The notes beneath the pieces are model-generated. The model was not told where the DNA came from and did no database searches. It saw only the letters and a program-made list of their open reading frames with translations. Shown one piece after another: positions 13,967 through 35,846 of a stretch of 35,846 nucleotides of DNA. A program made the position numbers and the translations under genes. Origin of the DNA: a virus; the IMG/VR virus record IMGVR_UViG_3300046018_000245, positions 1 to 35,846 of that record; one strand, 5' to 3'. The first letter of the stretch is position 1; every line of letters starts with the position of its first letter.

Positions 13967-15052
13967 ATGGCAAATTTTCCAGTACAAATGGGCGTATCAG
14001 GAAACGATGTTTTAAATGTTCAAAATCAAAATATTTTTGAACTCATTCGGCGCGAAGGCTTTCCTTTTGATTATAATAATTTTAATACCGTAAATTTTTC
14101 TTCGAGCAATCAATCAGCGGTTGTAAACGCGACTGGTAACTTTTCAAACTATCAAAGGTTAATTCTTACTAGGCCGATTTATTTAACCGCAAGTGACGAT
14201 TGCACGGTTTTTTATTCAGCAAACTCAGACCCAACAGGTAGCTTTCCGTCTATTCTTGGAAGCGTTCACTTACCTGCGAGAACTGCGGTCCCTATTGGGG
14301 GATCTTATCCCGTTTATCCTTTGCAATTTAGTTTTGGACTTTACGCAGACGCAGCAAAAGCGGCGGCAGGTAAATCGGTAACGATTGGCGTGAGCACCTC
14401 GGGAATCATGATCAATAATGATTTAAATTTCAACGCTAAGAAAAAAATCGTTTGGTTCGGAGATTCAATTACAGCCTACACTTGGAATTTAATTGGAATG
14501 CAAAACTGCTTCCCTTATGCGGTTCGCGATTGGTTAAATTTAAACTCACCACAAAAAAACGTCTGTAGGATGGTCAACAAAGGTATGTCAGGAAGAACGG
14601 GGGTAAGTTTCTCTACTATGCTAACTGATGATATTTGGTCTATAGACGATCCAGATATTGTTTTTTGGCAGCATGGGACAAACGATGCTTCTCAGTCGGT
14701 CGGTACCACCGCTTTCGTTGCCGCAATAAATAATTTCATCGCTTATAAAAAACAGCACTGGCCGAATGCTTGGATGGTTTTTTTAGGTTCAACTCCAAGA
14801 CAAGACAATACCGCCGAAACCTTGCTTGCCACTTACAGAGCGGCAGAAGCTGCAGCGGTCGCGGCGGCTGGTGACTCTAAAATCATTTACATTAGTCTAG
14901 CGAATGCTTTCGATAGAACTCTTTCGTTTTCTTCAGTGTGGGCAAGTTCTGATACAGCCGGAAATGGCTTGCACCCCGGAACTCTTTACGCACATCAAGG
15001 AATTACCAATACAATCACAGCCGGATTAGCGGCGGCAGGGATTACAATATGA
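13967..15052 (+). CDS. Virion-associated SGNH/GDSL-type hydrolase, 361 aa
   Basis: An N-terminal beta domain (about residues 1-155) probably attaches to the particle. The SGNH hydrolase follows: block I FGDSIT (Ser167), block II around NKGMSGRTG, block III GTNDA (Gly237-Asp240, Asn239), and block V NGLHPG (His336). Enzymes of this family remove acetyl or other acyl groups from sugars and lipids. In a phage particle, deacetylation of a surface polysaccharide during adsorption is the usual proposal. The residue three before the catalytic His is Asn333 where the family normally has Asp, so the triad is incomplete. An in-frame stop closely follows the last strand. The next gene overlaps by four bases (ATGA). 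Confidence 0.85.
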   Translation: MANFPVQMGVSGNDVLNVQNQNIFELIRREGFPFDYNNFNTVNFSSSNQSAVVNATGNFSNYQRLILTRPIYLTASDDCTVFYSANSDPTGSFPSILGSVHLPARTAVPIGGSYPVYPLQFSFGLYADAAKAAAGKSVTIGVSTSGIMINNDLNFNAKKKIVWFGDSITAYTWNLIGMQNCFPYAVRDWLNLNSPQKNVCRMVNKGMSGRTGVSFSTMLTDDIWSIDDPDIVFWQHGTNDASQSVGTTAFVAAINNFIAYKKQHWPNAWMVFLGSTPRQDNTAETLLATYRAAEAAAVAAAGDSKIIYISLANAFDRTLSFSSVWASSDTAGNGLHPGTLYAHQGITNTITAGLAAAGITI

Positions 15053-15431: not shown

Positions 15432-17372
15432 ATGAAAGTATATGGAGCATTAGAAAACGCGCAGATTGAGTGGTTTACAGAAGCAACGCTTCCAACGGCT
15501 GCTACGTATCCTTACAGAGTAGTACAAACTACCGATACCAAGAAAGTATACATTTCAGACGGTACTTCTTGGAACCAAGTAGGGTCGAAAGCTGGTACTA
15601 AAAATTACTTTTCTCAATCAAATATTAATCCTGATTTTGAAGGTGGTTTTATTACCCCATGGTCTGCTTTTACTACTACCTACGGATCTGACAGTGTTCC
15701 TACTACATTAACTTTTACAGCTTCTCAAGTTACTCTTTCTACCACCTCTACCAATCCACTAGTGGGCACTTACTCAGGACAATTTGTAAAATCTGCTGCA
15801 AATGCTCAAGGGCAGGGGATTTGTTCAGGAGTAATGACTATTGATAGAGAAGATAGAGCCAAAGTTTTGACGGGTTCTTTTTACTATGAAGTGGTCTCGG
15901 GGAGTGCTGATTTTTCAGGCACTTCAACTCAAAGTTTAGAAATTTGGCTTTATGACGTAACTAATTCCGCATGGGTTCAACCTGCTGGCTACCGTGGGAT
16001 GAATCAGAGTTCTGGTCAAGGAAGAGTATCTTTTACTTTTCAATCAGCATCGAACGCTTCTCAGTACCGAGTGGCTATACTGCTTAGACAAACAGATACA
16101 ACTGCAGTAACTGTAAATTTCGATGATTTCTCAGTAGGTCCTCAAACTGCACCAATTGGAGCAGTCATTACCGATTGGGTAGCATATACGCCTACGTTCA
16201 CGGGTTTCGGTACTGTATCTACGCAGAGTTGTTTTTTCCGTAGAGTGGGAGACTCTATTGAGGTTAGGGGAACATTTACTTCAGGTACATCTACTGCTAC
16301 AGAGGCAAGAGTTTCAATTCCGTATACAAGTGCTTCAAGCATTGCAACTTTAGAGCTTGCGGGAAAATGGGATAATAATGTATCAAGTGCTACTTTCTTT
16401 TCCTCTGGTACAATTTTATGCGAGCCTTCAGTCGGATACATTACTTTTGGAGCGGAAACTTCGGCTTTAAATGGTGTTACAAAGCAAAATGCAAATGCGT
16501 TCGCAGCTTCTGGGAACACGTTTAAATTTTATTTTAAATTACCTATCAGTGGATTTTCATCTAACGTTCAAGTAAGCAACGATACGGATACGCGAGTAGT
16601 GGCTTTAGTAGTAACGGGTTCAGCAGCTACTGCTACAGGTGGAAATCCAATTATTTTTCCTACGGTAACAAAAGATTCTCATGGTAATTATAATTCCTCT
16701 ACAGGAAGATACACAGTTCCTGTCTCAGGATTTTATCAAGTATCTACTGGATTTAGAGCAGCTTCGGGATCTTTATCATCTCTTTATTGCTACATCAACG
16801 GAGCAATTGCGGGAACGATAGGATTAAAGAATAGTACTGATGGAGGAGGAACGGGAGCGGGTACTTTTTTCTGTAACTCAGGAGATATCCTCGATATTAG
16901 ACCACTTACAAACAGTGTGTCGGCTATGGCTTCCGATTCAAATTTTTCTATCTTTAGATTAACAGGTCCGTCGGTGATTGCTGCGACTGAGCTTGTGGCA
17001 TGTGCTTATGGTTTAACCACTTCTCAAGCAGTAGCTTTAAATGCAGTACTAAAACTTGATACAAAAATTGTAGATACCCACAGTGCATACTCAACTTCCA
17101 CTGGTTTATTCACAGCTCCAGTTTCTGGCACCTATGAAATTTCCGGGAGCTTTAATATGAGTGCAACTGGTGGGACTTATATCAAGAAAAATTCTACCGC
17201 AGTAGCTTACCTTGGGACTGCTTCTGCGAACGTATATGCGTCTGGAAGTTATCTTGTGAGTTTGGTTGCTGGAGATACTGTTGGATTATATACCGATTCT
17301 GCTTCTACCTACGCTGCCACCACAGGAAACGGCTATGTAAATAAATTAAATATTAAGAGGCTTGGTAACTAA
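15432..17372 (+). CDS. Tail fibre/receptor-binding protein with two C1q-like domains, 646 aa
   Basis: The N-terminus (residues 1-55) has the fibre-attachment pattern WFTEATLPTAATYPYRVVQ followed by VYISDGTSWNQVG. Residues about 60-235 look like a galactose-binding-type jelly roll (NPDFEGGFITPWSAF and, at its end, TVNFDDFSVGPQ). A linker domain around residues 240-385 follows. The last 260 residues contain two C1q/TNF-like units, each with an NxxTGxxxxPVSGxY signature: YNSSTGRYTVPVSGFYQVS and YSTSTGLFTAPVSGTYEIS. C1q-like heads trimerise and are known in phage and bacterial surface-binding proteins. The likely role is host recognition. GGGG lies about 7 bases upstream of the ATG. The next gene starts on its stop codon (TAATG). 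Confidence 0.75.
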   Translation: MKVYGALENAQIEWFTEATLPTAATYPYRVVQTTDTKKVYISDGTSWNQVGSKAGTKNYFSQSNINPDFEGGFITPWSAFTTTYGSDSVPTTLTFTASQVTLSTTSTNPLVGTYSGQFVKSAANAQGQGICSGVMTIDREDRAKVLTGSFYYEVVSGSADFSGTSTQSLEIWLYDVTNSAWVQPAGYRGMNQSSGQGRVSFTFQSASNASQYRVAILLRQTDTTAVTVNFDDFSVGPQTAPIGAVITDWVAYTPTFTGFGTVSTQSCFFRRVGDSIEVRGTFTSGTSTATEARVSIPYTSASSIATLELAGKWDNNVSSATFFSSGTILCEPSVGYITFGAETSALNGVTKQNANAFAASGNTFKFYFKLPISGFSSNVQVSNDTDTRVVALVVTGSAATATGGNPIIFPTVTKDSHGNYNSSTGRYTVPVSGFYQVSTGFRAASGSLSSLYCYINGAIAGTIGLKNSTDGGGTGAGTFFCNSGDILDIRPLTNSVSAMASDSNFSIFRLTGPSVIAATELVACAYGLTTSQAVALNAVLKLDTKIVDTHSAYSTSTGLFTAPVSGTYEISGSFNMSATGGTYIKKNSTAVAYLGTASANVYASGSYLVSLVAGDTVGLYTDSASTYAATTGNGYVNKLNIKRLGN

Positions 17373-17810: not shown

Positions 17811-18052
17811 TGAGTTCACTTATTTTTGAAATTATCTCGGAGGGATTAGTTTTAATAAATAAACTAGTCCCTTCAGAGGCAATTAGAATTCAGGAAAGAC
17901 TTAATGACTATAAAAGACAATGGGACGAAGAAATTTCCAAAGGTGCTCTTAGGAATGATGCTAAGCTTGATTATCTTGACAATGAGTTGCGCTACACAGG
18001 CGATTTATTCGTTACCGCCCTTAAGTCAGCGTCACTTGCGGATAAGTCTTGA
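17810..18052 (+). CDS. Hypothetical helical protein overlapping the lipoprotein gene, 80 aa
   Basis: A helical, charged protein beginning MSSLIFEIISEGLVLINKLV and ending TALKSASLADKS. The middle is coiled-coil-like (IRIQERLNDYKRQWDEEISK). Its ATG overlaps the preceding stop codon (TAATG). Its last 149 bases are shared, in a different frame, with the lipoprotein gene at 17904. The N-terminus is only moderately hydrophobic, so a membrane anchor is uncertain. Tandem-overlapping genes at this place in the cassette recall nested spanin pairs. Confidence 0.55.
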   Translation: MSSLIFEIISEGLVLINKLVPSEAIRIQERLNDYKRQWDEEISKGALRNDAKLDYLDNELRYTGDLFVTALKSASLADKS

Positions 18053-18230
18053 TGGCCCGTGGACAGAATATAGATGGAGTGAAAAAGTATGTGTGACAAG
18101 GTTCCTTTCCCTTTGTGTTAAATACAAAGAAGTAGAGCATATAGAGAGAGATTTTAATTTTAACGAAGCCTCCGATAGGAAGAAATTTCTAGAGATGGGT
18201 TTTGATTGCTCGGTACGAAAACAGAAATGA
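17904..18230 (+). CDS. Putative lipoprotein in lysis cassette, 108 aa
   Basis: The basic N-terminus (KKFPK, residues 9-13) precedes a hydrophobic stretch and a lipobox-like LTMSC ending at Cys29. The protein would be exported and lipid-anchored. The mature part has three more cysteines and no Pro-rich stretch. AGGAAAG lies five bases before the ATG, inside the 80-aa gene, so translation is well supported despite the 149-base overlap. Its TGA overlaps the endolysin ATG. An outer-membrane spanin is one reading by context and lipobox. The sequence does not resemble the classical Rz1. Confidence 0.65.
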   Translation: MTIKDNGTKKFPKVLLGMMLSLIILTMSCATQAIYSLPPLSQRHLRISLDGPWTEYRWSEKVCVTRFLSLCVKYKEVEHIERDFNFNEASDRKKFLEMGFDCSVRKQK

Positions 18231-18610
18231 TCACGATTGAGGAGCTTAATCCCCATAAGTTAATAGTAACCCCAGAGATCGAGAGTAATTTGAATGAATT
18301 GCTTATTCGTATGAATAAGATCCGGGCTTTATGGGGTAAACCGATGATAGTTACCTCTGGTCTCCGCTCTAAAGAACTTCAATCAGAGCTAATAAAAGTA
18401 GGTAAAAGTACGGCATACGCATCGCGTCACTTGACTGGACAAGCATGCGATATTTTCGATCCCCATAAAGACTTAGCTAATTGGTGCCTTCTGAACGCTC
18501 ATTTTCTTGGTGAGAATAACCTTTGGTGTGAAGATCCTTCGTACTGTTCTAATTGGACTCATTTTCAGTCGGTTCCTCCGAAAAGTGGGAAAAGGTTTTT
18601 CATTCCGTAA
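18227..18610 (+). CDS. Endolysin, M15-type D,D-peptidase, 127 aa
   Basis: A zinc peptidase of the M15 group, which cleaves peptide cross-links or the D-Ala end of peptidoglycan stems. It has the SGLRS entry motif (residues 44-48) and zinc ligands in SRHLTGQACD (His68, Asp75). The third ligand and catalytic region are in WCEDPSYCSNWTHFQS (Glu102 or Asp103, His112). The ATG at 18227 overlaps the lipoprotein stop (ATGA) and is preferred over a TTG seven codons upstream. There is no signal peptide, so release needs a holin, consistent with the membrane proteins just upstream. It ends the lysis cassette. Confidence 0.85.
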   Translation: MITIEELNPHKLIVTPEIESNLNELLIRMNKIRALWGKPMIVTSGLRSKELQSELIKVGKSTAYASRHLTGQACDIFDPHKDLANWCLLNAHFLGENNLWCEDPSYCSNWTHFQSVPPKSGKRFFIP

Positions 18611-31824: not shown

Positions 31825-32127
31825 TTATTTTTTGTGACTATTAAGAAGTACGCTAAAGCAGCTGAAATGCTTAATCCAATAAAGCTCCCGCTCCATCGCA
31901 ATATTTTGATGAACAGCGTCTAAGAAAACAAAAAGGGGAGGAATATTTAAATCCATAAGCTCGTTGATCCAAGTATTCTTCTTAATCCCCGACCCTTTTT
32001 TATTTCTATCTTTTAAATGTTCGTTCATCCGCTTCTCTGGATTGGAGGTAACACCAACATAGCGAATAAGCCCCGTCCTAGGATCAAGTAACCCGTAGAT
32101 AACTCGGTGATTCATGGGGAGGAACAT
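31825..32127 (-). CDS. GIY-YIG family endonuclease, 100 aa
   Basis: The motif is IYGLLDPRTGLIRYVGVTSN with the GIY-equivalent tyrosine (residue 11) and the YVG pair. The conserved Arg and His of the active site lie in PEKRMNEHLK, and a Glu lies in AMERELYWI (about residue 77). It consists of the nuclease domain only, without a DNA-recognition tail, so it may be a trimmed homing-type enzyme or a small repair-type nuclease. It is inserted between the helicase and coiled-coil genes. The start is at 32127 or 32115; neither has a good ribosome-binding site. Confidence 0.8.
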   Translation of the reverse strand: MFLPMNHRVIYGLLDPRTGLIRYVGVTSNPEKRMNEHLKDRNKKGSGIKKNTWINELMDLNIPPLFVFLDAVHQNIAMERELYWIKHFSCFSVLLNSHKK

Positions 32128-32154: not shown

Positions 32155-33666
32155 TCAGAGCAAATTTCTTATGTCTATGATGCGGGAGGCCAAATCGCTC
32201 TTCTCAGATAAAGCTTTATTAATGATCTCATCTATGGTTTTTTCAGCTACGAGGTCAATTCGAGTGATCTTTTGATGAATTTCGCTTCCTCCTCGGTAGC
32301 ATCTTGCTTCGCTCTGAAGGTCATGCTCAAGCGTAAAGTTCTTCGAATAGTAAATCATCGTACTCGCCGCAATCATGTTTGTACCTGTGCCCCCTGCGCT
32401 TTGAGTAGCAAGCATTACTCTGCAGGCAGGGTCCTTTTCAAACTTATCAAGCTCGGTTTGTTTGTCCTTAATTGCGCCCGTAACCTCTGCAAAAGGTATC
32501 TTCATTTTAGCGAGTAGCTTCCTAATCACGGCATGGTCGTGCTGCCATGTAGCCCACACAATGACCTTCTCGGATGGGGTAATATCCTCTAAAAGTTCTT
32601 CAAGGGCATCAAGCCTAGGGTTATCCATGAAAGAGTGGATCGCGCCATCCTCTAACGTTAAATGCCCCGAAATAATTTGTTGCATGCGAAGTGCCTTCGT
32701 TAAAGCAAGCGTTGCTACTGCAGGACCCTTCTCGTCGATAAAAGCAATGAAATCCTTTTTCATCGCATCGTAGGCTTTCTTTTGTTCCGCCGAAAGCTCC
32801 ACAGGTACGGTGGTTTTGAGTAGTGGGGGGAGGTCTAAACAGTCTTCTTTTTTCGCAGTCACTACGTGAGGCTCCATAAGAGCTTTTAACTTGTCCTCAC
32901 TTCCTGCGGTGGGTACCCAAGCAGGGAAGTGCTTCTGTTTTGGCATATAAGCGTTCTTGTCGCGGAAGTAATTTGCTCGAAACGCAAAAAAGTTTTTACC
33001 GAATGTTTTGCCTTGGTTCAATATTAGAAACTGAGAAAATAAATCCATCGTATTTTGGAGCACTGGGGTGCCCGTTAAAATATAGCGGTGATGGACGGAA
33101 AGTTTTTCCATCTGCTCAGAAAGTTTAATGAGCATTTTACTTCGCTTAGCCGCTGGATTTTTGGTCCTATGAGATTCGTCAATAACCATACAGTTCGGGG
33201 GATTAGCAAGCAAACTCGCTACAAACTTGTCATTTGTCATCGCCTCAAAATTAGTAATGTATATAGCGTCTTTGTCGAAGTTCTCTAAGTACTCAACTCT
33301 TTTTGAAACGGGGCCTGTAAGTATCAGAATTTTTGTAAGAGGGATTTTAGAGAATTTTAAAATCTCTCGCTCCCAATTGAGCACAACTGCTTTGGGACAA
33401 ACTATTAAGGTTCGGAGGATTTTTTTATTTTTATTATATTTATTGCGGAGAATATTGACTACTGTAGCACTTTTTCCAGTCCCCATTGGAAGGAACAACG
33501 CTAGGTCATTTACTGTTTCGGCCTTTGCAATACTCTCTATCTGATGGTTCCAAAGTTTAAGATCTACTTTTTTAGCATTATCGTGTAAGTGTGAAAAATC
33601 AAAAGCATCGGATTCCTCCCTAGCTTTTTTATAATCTGCTTTTTCTCTCGCTAAACTTAAACTCAT
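32155..33666 (-). CDS. SNF2-type superfamily 2 DNA helicase/translocase, 503 aa
   Basis: Motifs appear in order: Walker A LPMGTGKS (Lys65), the DExx box VIDESHRTKN, motif III ILTGTPVLQN, the C-terminal core with MLATQSAGGTGTNMI, and motif VI QSEARCYRGG. These SNF2-like helicases are common in phage replication modules and are thought to move or remodel proteins on branched DNA. The ATG at 33666 is preferred because GGAGGG lies 6-11 bases upstream; a TTG 13 codons earlier lacks a site. The length suits the core domains without extra accessory domains. Confidence 0.9.
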   Translation of the reverse strand: MSLSLAREKADYKKAREESDAFDFSHLHDNAKKVDLKLWNHQIESIAKAETVNDLALFLPMGTGKSATVVNILRNKYNKNKKILRTLIVCPKAVVLNWEREILKFSKIPLTKILILTGPVSKRVEYLENFDKDAIYITNFEAMTNDKFVASLLANPPNCMVIDESHRTKNPAAKRSKMLIKLSEQMEKLSVHHRYILTGTPVLQNTMDLFSQFLILNQGKTFGKNFFAFRANYFRDKNAYMPKQKHFPAWVPTAGSEDKLKALMEPHVVTAKKEDCLDLPPLLKTTVPVELSAEQKKAYDAMKKDFIAFIDEKGPAVATLALTKALRMQQIISGHLTLEDGAIHSFMDNPRLDALEELLEDITPSEKVIVWATWQHDHAVIRKLLAKMKIPFAEVTGAIKDKQTELDKFEKDPACRVMLATQSAGGTGTNMIAASTMIYYSKNFTLEHDLQSEARCYRGGSEIHQKITRIDLVAEKTIDEIINKALSEKSDLASRIIDIRNLL

Positions 33667-33774: not shown

Positions 33775-34461
33775 TTAAACTACAAAATCACCCATTTTAT
33801 CTAAAGTTATAAAATATGGACCGTCTTGATTAAGCCAATTCGCTTCAGCCCACTTTAAAATAATATTTGGTCTAGACATAGATTTGTTCTTTTCTAAATT
33901 AGAAAAATTAATTATATAGTTAATACGTGAAGCAGTGAAGTTTTTTAAAAACTGAAATTCATTTTGGGTATGTGATGTAGCATCTATAATTTGTTTAAAC
34001 CCACTATTCCCATGTACAAGAATAGTATCTATAAAAGCTGTAAAAATCCAAAAGTGAGAAAGCCCTAAATCTTTGAATTTATTAATAGCAGGTTCTATGG
34101 TTCGAGCGTAGTAAACGGTATCACAAGCCTTCTTTACTTCTTTATCATTTCCGTACTTTACCCAGTCCACAATAAAAGCTTTCTTAGGAAATCGAAACTT
34201 AGAATAAAACCACGACTTCATGGACTTTTGGATCGGTGTAATATAGTTGAGCAAAGGATGATGCCTATTTTGGCCCATTAAAATTACTAAAACTTGCAGT
34301 AAATCCCCTGTCTTTGTACAAAACTTTTGGCTTGATACAGTCACTCCAGAAGTTGCATAGTTTTGTAAAGCTTCAGCGTAATTATAAACCGTATCCGGTT
34401 TACCTAATTCAAAAATATTACATATCTTAATCGCTGTATTTATCTGTTTATGTGTTACCAT
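33775..34461 (-). CDS. GH46 chitosanase-like protein, 228 aa
   Basis: Compared from memory with Streptomyces N174 chitosanase, the match runs the whole length. It includes NIFELG with the catalytic Glu at residue 18 (N174 Glu22), FCTKTGDLLQV (residues 47-57), and an N-P-L-x-x-Y-type region. VYYARTIEPAINKFKDLGLS is followed by DTILVHGNSG, matching the MHGPG loop. FLKNFTASR, and finally LDKMGDFVV near the C-terminus, also match. The spacing Glu18 to Asp53 is the same as in N174. The usual second acid (Asp40 of N174) falls on Ala36 or Asn34, so activity may be lost or changed. No signal peptide. A glycan hydrolase is the best reading; a peptidoglycan or chitosan target is open. Confidence 0.7.
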   Translation of the reverse strand: MVTHKQINTAIKICNIFELGKPDTVYNYAEALQNYATSGVTVSSQKFCTKTGDLLQVLVILMGQNRHHPLLNYITPIQKSMKSWFYSKFRFPKKAFIVDWVKYGNDKEVKKACDTVYYARTIEPAINKFKDLGLSHFWIFTAFIDTILVHGNSGFKQIIDATSHTQNEFQFLKNFTASRINYIINFSNLEKNKSMSRPNIILKWAEANWLNQDGPYFITLDKMGDFVV

Positions 34462-34950: not shown

Positions 34951-35232
34951 ATGAGGCTACCTAATCAACTGTGGATAAAACCAAAAGTAATTTACGAAGT
35001 AGTCTACCAAGAGCAGATTGGGGACGACCCTAAAGACATCGGCTATTGTGACGATGAAACAAAGCATATTTATATTAAATTAGGCTTAGATCAATTAGAC
35101 GAGCTAGATACTCAAATACATGAACTTCTTCATGCTGTGTGTCATTCGTATAGGGTAAAGCTTCCCCATAAAGAGCTTGATAAGCTTGCGACTGCGCTTG
35201 CGAAAGTAATTCTGCTAAACCAAAAACCCTAA
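34951..35232 (+). CDS. Small HExxH zinc-metalloprotease-like phage protein, 93 aa
   Basis: Contains TQIHELLHAVCHSY with His57, Glu58 and His61 (HExxH) and a further His65. A conserved-looking C-terminal helix (LPHKELDKLATALAKVILLN) follows, whose Glu could be a third zinc ligand. Small HELLHA-type proteins of about 90-160 residues are frequent in phages; most are untested. A single gene read on the + strand within a minus-strand block. A weak TATAAC (34931-34936) precedes it and no clear ribosome-binding site is seen. Its stop overlaps that of the minus gene at 35229 by four bases. Confidence 0.75.
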   Translation: MRLPNQLWIKPKVIYEVVYQEQIGDDPKDIGYCDDETKHIYIKLGLDQLDELDTQIHELLHAVCHSYRVKLPHKELDKLATALAKVILLNQKP

Positions 35233-35615: not shown

Positions 35616-35846
35616 TTAAACCTTTAAAGGAAGTGGAGTTGCAATATTTGCGTGAGCTTCTACGTAATTACCAATGGCATATGGGTACGACATATCACGC
35701 TCGGAACTCCAGTCAAAAGAGTGAGAGAACCCTAAAGCATGAACTCCTTCGTGAACAAGATGCCCGGCAAGCCCCGCTACTGACAATCCATCATAGGTAT
35801 CTGAATAGGTATGTACTCCAGAATCATCTTCCCATCCCATTACAGT
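35616..35846 (-). CDS. Metzincin-motif zinc metalloprotease-like protein, 5' end cut by window
   Basis: The frame runs open to the window edge, so only the C-terminal part (at least 76 residues) is seen; an ATG at 35840 is probably internal. It contains LVHEGVHALGFSH, an exact HExxHxxGxxH signature of the metzincin clan. A possible Met-turn, RDMSYPYAIG, follows 9 residues later. Zinc would be held by the three His, with Glu as base. The short distance to the Met-turn and the short C-terminus are unlike large metzincins. Possible roles are host-protein cleavage or virion processing; nothing in view decides. Confidence 0.7.
   Translation of the reverse strand, partial: TVMGWEDDSGVHTYSDTYDGLSVAGLAGHLVHEGVHALGFSHSFDWSSERDMSYPYAIGNYVEAHANIATPLPLKV

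Follow-up and report, generated by a model that had tools for sequence, protein, structure and literature searches.

A divergent GH46-family protein without the general-base aspartate, encoded in the replication block of a virus genome

We found that a gene beside a phage helicase gene encodes a real GH46 (chitosanase-family) protein that is very divergent (Table 1). The window, that is, the whole stretch of DNA analyzed, comprises a single 35846-base virus record from IMG/VR; it has no exact end repeats, and both of its ends cut ORFs. Membership in GH46, by descent and by fold, stands. The label "canonical GH46 catalysis" does not, because the base Asp and its partner Arg are absent; membership is unaffected by this, since one active member of the family also lacks Asp and Arg (PMC4663542). 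We tentatively favor the view that the protein is an accessory glycosidase that would use E18, E30 and T41, with the host wall a more likely target than chitosan.

Table 1. Features of the window, with residues numbered in the GH46-fold protein (the query) and equivalents in the numbering of chitosanase N174; fractions are counts among 47 aligned relatives
Feature	Position	Strand	Basis
GH46-fold protein, 228 aa, pI 9.4	33775..34461	-	Pfam, phmmer, HMM, AlphaFold2 model, Foldseek
E18, at the position of the catalytic acid Glu22	34408..34410	-	E in 47/47; role from PMC3848431
E30, equivalent of Glu36, which assists catalysis where Asp40 is missing	34372..34374	-	E in 44/47; role as cited in PMC2835661
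Altered base-side hairpin, residues 33-46 (QNYATSGVTVSSQK)	34324..34365	-	alignment of 47 relatives; IMG/VR pattern search
T41, equivalent of the water-positioning Thr45	34339..34341	-	T in 47/47; role from PMC4663542
T51-G52-D53	34303..34311	-	T and D in 47/47; role from PMC4663542
T121, replacing Tyr122, a subsite -2 residue	34099..34101	-	Y in 47/47; role from PMC4663542
D145, Arg-Asp-Arg network supporting the acid	34027..34029	-	D in 45/47; PMC4663542
R179, Arg-Asp-Arg network	33925..33927	-	R in 47/47
R197, Arg-Asp-Arg network, Arg contacting the acid	33871..33873	-	R in 47/47
SNF2-type helicase, replication block (start, ATG at 33666)	32155..33666	-	PF00176, E 5e-28; phrog_62
M15 peptidase, probable endolysin, lysis region	18206..18610	+	PF08291, 36 bits, cut-off 23.2

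Family membership and predicted fold

The ORF starts with ATG. Its product matched Pfam PF01374 with an E-value of 2.3e-14 (54 bits, cut-off 27), and in a phmmer search its residues 8-228 matched PDB 7c6c, the Bacillus chitosanase CsnMY002 (E 1.9e-11). Against a GH46 HMM built without it, the query scored 75 bits (E 1e-22), whereas none of 500 shuffled versions of its residues exceeded 4 bits. Searches with PADLOC (defence) and NCBIfam gave no match to the query.

AlphaFold2 with 47 homologues produced a model with pLDDT 89 and pTM 0.87. This model superposed on 7c6c with a TM score of 0.87 and has the two-lobed lysozyme-like fold. Ranks 1-13 of a Foldseek search against the PDB were all GH46 structures. 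A single-sequence prediction without homologues gave pLDDT 38 and no usable fold; the model therefore depends on the alignment and cannot count as evidence separate from the homology. The base-side hairpin was among the least certain parts (mean pLDDT 71 for residues 31-40). A sequence-only reading of this DNA had called the protein GH46 chitosanase-like and proposed a PF01374 search and a structure prediction; both bore it out, the latter within the dependence just described.

The best matches in sequence and structure were Bacillus GH46 chitosanases (cluster B, including 7c6c). They share with the query the fold, the acid Glu, the Glu36 and Thr45 equivalents, the TGD and HG motifs and the Arg-Asp-Arg network. 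However, identity is 24-29%, and the query lacks the Asp, the Arg, the GRAG motif and Tyr122, has a 2-residue insertion and no signal peptide, and is basic. The closest fold outside GH46 was the VgrG3 C-terminal domain (4noo, 4nso), which cuts peptidoglycan glycan chains (PMC12663445); phage VgrG-like endolysins have a related fold as well. The TM score to the VgrG3 domain was only 0.52-0.54, and the domain was not found as GH46 by sequence.

Active-site residues kept and lost

We scored active-site residues in an alignment with 47 GH46 relatives, which were collected by patterns around the TGD motif, a procedure that favors canonical members. The query keeps 14 of the 22 positions invariant in these relatives, including E18, T41, D53, H150, R179 and R197. 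E18 is at the end of helix 1, in the position of the catalytic acid. The sequence-only reading had picked out this Glu, the TGD motif (T51 is the Thr55 equivalent), the HG loop (H150-G151) and a C-terminal motif, and each holds up; the last is a GDF in the query and agrees with the GDF or GNF of the Bacillus enzymes. Asp57, the equivalent of D53, recognizes the amino group of GlcN at subsite -2 (PMC4663542). Retention of D53 argues for a substrate with a free amine; de-N-acetylated wall glycan and chitosan would both be compatible with this.

Eight of the 22 invariant positions (S15, N19, D34, G37, G43, G46, L89 and Y121) are lost, mostly around the substrate and the base side. In the alignment, loss is thus concentrated on the base side and the substrate contacts, with the acid side whole. 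The general-base Asp, present in 47/47 relatives, corresponds to N34 or A36 depending on the register, and neither is acidic. Its partner Arg42 (46/47) is S38 in the query, the loop NYATSGVT is two residues longer than in the relatives, and the Arg, Ala and Gly after Thr45 are S44, Q45 and K46. The hairpin has lost Asp40, Arg42 and the GRAG motif and has kept T41.

Loss of the Asp is unusual but has precedent. In the Streptomyces chitosanase N174, catalysis relies on Glu22 as acid and Asp40 as base. N174 with D40G has 3% of its activity left, and D40G together with a changed Arg42 leaves 0.03-0.002% of wild type (PMC3848431). According to work cited in PMC2835661, D40G leaves the stereochemistry unchanged, and Glu36 and Thr45 take part in the reaction. 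Chitosan is cut at 1500 U/mg by Cho4239-1 of Janthinobacterium sp. 4239, an enzyme that lacks the Asp (PMC2835661); a GH46 review names it as the one active enzyme without Asp and Arg (PMC4663542). These precedents, D40G and Cho4239-1, single out E30 and T41 as candidate catalytic residues. As described, Cho4239-1 resembles the query in having the acid and an accessory Glu without the Asp/Arg pair (PMC2835661, PMC4663542). Unlike the query, it is 64% identical to N174, secreted and fully active on chitosan. The earlier reading was right that the Asp aligns to Ala36 or Asn34. It overstated how strange this is, given active GH46 enzymes without Asp (PMC2835661, PMC3848431, PMC4663542), and understated the extent of change: the Arg partner, the subsite -2 Tyr and most of the hairpin are also gone, and the Glu36/Thr45 pair is kept.

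Gene neighborhood, relatives and composition

The gene lies between small ORFs and the helicase gene in a leftward block of genes for polymerase A, an exonuclease, a Pam3 gp34-like protein, a DUF7307-like protein, a GIY-YIG protein, the helicase and the GH46-like protein, followed by small ORFs. It is outside the lysis cassette. The lysis slot is held by the M15 gene, in a rightward region after small membrane ORFs and a lipobox-like ORF. No signal peptide or membrane helix was evident in the query (maximum 19-aa hydropathy 1.36), and the ORF begins at the boundary of the mature domain. On all of these points (a helicase neighbor, distance from the lysis cassette, an M15 enzyme there, no signal peptide) we agree with the sequence-only reading. 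The lipobox-like start of ORF 17904-18230 hints at a Gram-negative host.

Other genes of the window were also of note. The GIY-YIG endonuclease adjoining the helicase (31825-32127, minus strand) is a stand-alone protein. Two small proteins with HExxH motifs like those of metal proteases are encoded on either side of the small ORFs near the GH46-like gene (34951-35232, plus strand; 35616-35846, minus strand, cut by the window end). In the structural region, neighboring genes (13967-15052 and 15432-17372) encode GDSL lipase/esterase and C1q-like domains.

A related phage, L064 (polymerase 35% and helicase 36% identical), has the same block. It has no GH46 gene and carries an M15 peptidase gene directly after the helicase gene, so the replication block can carry wall enzymes. 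No GH46 gene was found near the helicase in 80 loci of related phages collected by helicase, nor in the 50 of those virus records that were searched. A tblastn search of 50,697 phage records found no close relative of the query; GH46 in these records was confined to Streptomyces phages, apart from one weak match, and belonged there to long proteins encoded in the tail or lysis region. Protein patterns of the query and of its phage's polymerase found no close relative in IMG/VR. In IMG/VR, a DNA pattern set to the loop spacing of the query matched no stretch besides its own record. The same pattern with normal spacing matched 10, and the Asp was present in every alignment among the matches listed. 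The query's loop is in no other GH46 protein that we found, viral or cellular.

Two kinds of phage protein are nearest in type. Streptomyces Rimavirus tail-region proteins are also phage-encoded GH46, but there the domain is part of proteins of about 600-850 aa among tail or lysis genes, keeps Asp-Arg and forms a separate clade in the tree. BFVD entry A0A6J7XBS0, from an uncultured Caudovirales phage, is a stand-alone GH46-fold protein of the same size (221 aa, TM 0.80); it is 22% identical to the query, as compared by fold and identity.

Among Pseudomonadota and Bdellovibrionota genomes, 12 had GH46. A divergent Pseudomonadota group (L155, L157-L160) has a DSGHLTYGR-type loop and resembles cluster E of the GH46 review; we rejected it as the query's kind, as the Asp is kept there and Arg42 and the -2 Asp are lost. 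In a Lachnospiraceae MAG, a membrane-anchored protein with a C-terminal GH46 domain (L017, 4206-5705) is encoded in a division cluster between ftsQ-like and ftsZ genes, named by eye from translations. This position suggests a wall role for a cellular GH46. A canonical lipoprotein-type chitosanase gene in IMG/VR (L008, 7854-8702) lies beside dnaE-like and carboxylase genes, in a region that looks like host chromosome.

The query stood alone in a 41-member tree, on a branch 4.8 changes per column long (median 0.45); its nearest neighbors were Bacillota sequences, in a placement without support. The G+C content of its gene is 31.7%, compared with about 40%, and is the lowest of the phage's tested genes. 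Its net charge of +9 is the highest of the 41 members (mean of the others, -11). Low G+C accounts for part of this charge.

Possible functions

In the mechanism that we propose, a phage accessory gene would supply a cytoplasmic, soluble GH46-fold glycosidase with a rebuilt base side. E18 would donate the proton, aided by D145, R179 and R197. In place of the lost Asp/Arg pair, E30 would activate a water molecule positioned by T41 for the attack, at a rate below that of ordinary chitosanases. At subsite -2, D53 would remain able to recognize a free amine, and loss of Tyr122, Arg42 and the Gly/Arg of the hairpin would open and recharge that side. The basic protein would meet the host wall only once the membrane fails at lysis, and would then act beside the M15 endolysin.

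The homology, the predicted fold and the 14 kept invariant positions favor such an enzyme, as do the retention of E30 and T41, the residual activity of N174 D40G and the activity of Cho4239-1. The pI and net charge fit an anionic rather than a cationic polymer. Holin-dependent phage lysins also lack a signal peptide, and the missing export signal and the charge together fit a lysin acting at lysis better than a secreted chitosanase. The wall enzyme in the L064 block and the peptidoglycan-cutting VgrG3 domain as closest non-GH46 fold point the same way. However, Arg42, whose change together with D40G nearly abolished N174 activity, is lost in the query; the long branch is expected under relaxed constraint too; the hairpin model is uncertain; low G+C confounds the charge argument because it favors Lys codons by itself; no relative from a second phage shows these residues under selection; and the gene is outside the lysis region.

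A more specific version, which we consider improbable, is that the protein is a phage lysozyme derived from a chitosanase: basic, with free-amine recognition kept and the base moved to the Glu36 position, it would cut partly de-N-acetylated peptidoglycan. Bdellovibrio DslA, a lysozyme-superfamily enzyme for GlcNAc-deacetylated peptidoglycan in which a second Glu replaces the Asp (PMC7511926), offers a comparison, although it is closest to GH23, not GH46.

Nearly as likely as an altered glycosidase is a pseudoenzyme, in which useful catalysis has been lost and the GH46 fold serves as a module for glycan binding or for blocking; it might bind a wall precursor in the cytoplasm, for example, or act in host takeover. 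The Asp, Arg, Tyr122 and hairpin Gly/Arg positions are lost together, N174 without Asp and Arg has at most 0.03% activity (PMC3848431), the branch is long, and the replication-block position and lack of an export signal fit as well. Against this, a mere binder would have no need of the acid Glu, the Arg-Asp-Arg network, the water-positioning Thr and the accessory Glu, all of which are kept.

The gene might instead be a captured chitosanase en route to loss, a low-G+C accessory gene stripped of signal peptide and active loop and functionless in the phage. Its G+C content, its absence from the 50 related records and its start at the mature domain boundary agree with this. We consider it quite unlikely, as the frame is intact over 228 codons, key residues are kept despite about 24% identity, and the divergence is too large for recent capture. 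Still less probable is an auxiliary metabolic role, with a chitosanase assisting the host in chitosan use: a soil virus-encoded GH75 chitosanase has been shown to be active (PMC12713726), and the query has GH46 homology and the Asp57 equivalent, but it has no signal peptide for an extracellular substrate, is basic unlike most chitosanases, and has partly lost the -2 subsite. A one-acid lytic transglycosylase forming 1,6-anhydro ends on peptidoglycan is very improbable: lysozyme-superfamily transglycosylases do use one acidic residue (PMC7511926) and the query has kept Glu and lost Asp, but no sequence feature points to MurNAc binding, T41 and E30 fit water attack, and D53 reads a free amine.

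An active protein would test, in a natural setting, whether the acid-side half of a GH46 site, with Glu36 and Thr45, suffices for catalysis once both Asp and Arg have been lost, and it might be a phage enzyme directed at deacetylated walls; were it the chitosanase-derived lysozyme, its substrate would be peptidoglycan that ordinary lysozymes cut poorly. If it is inactive, it would represent phage re-use of the lysozyme fold as a binder.
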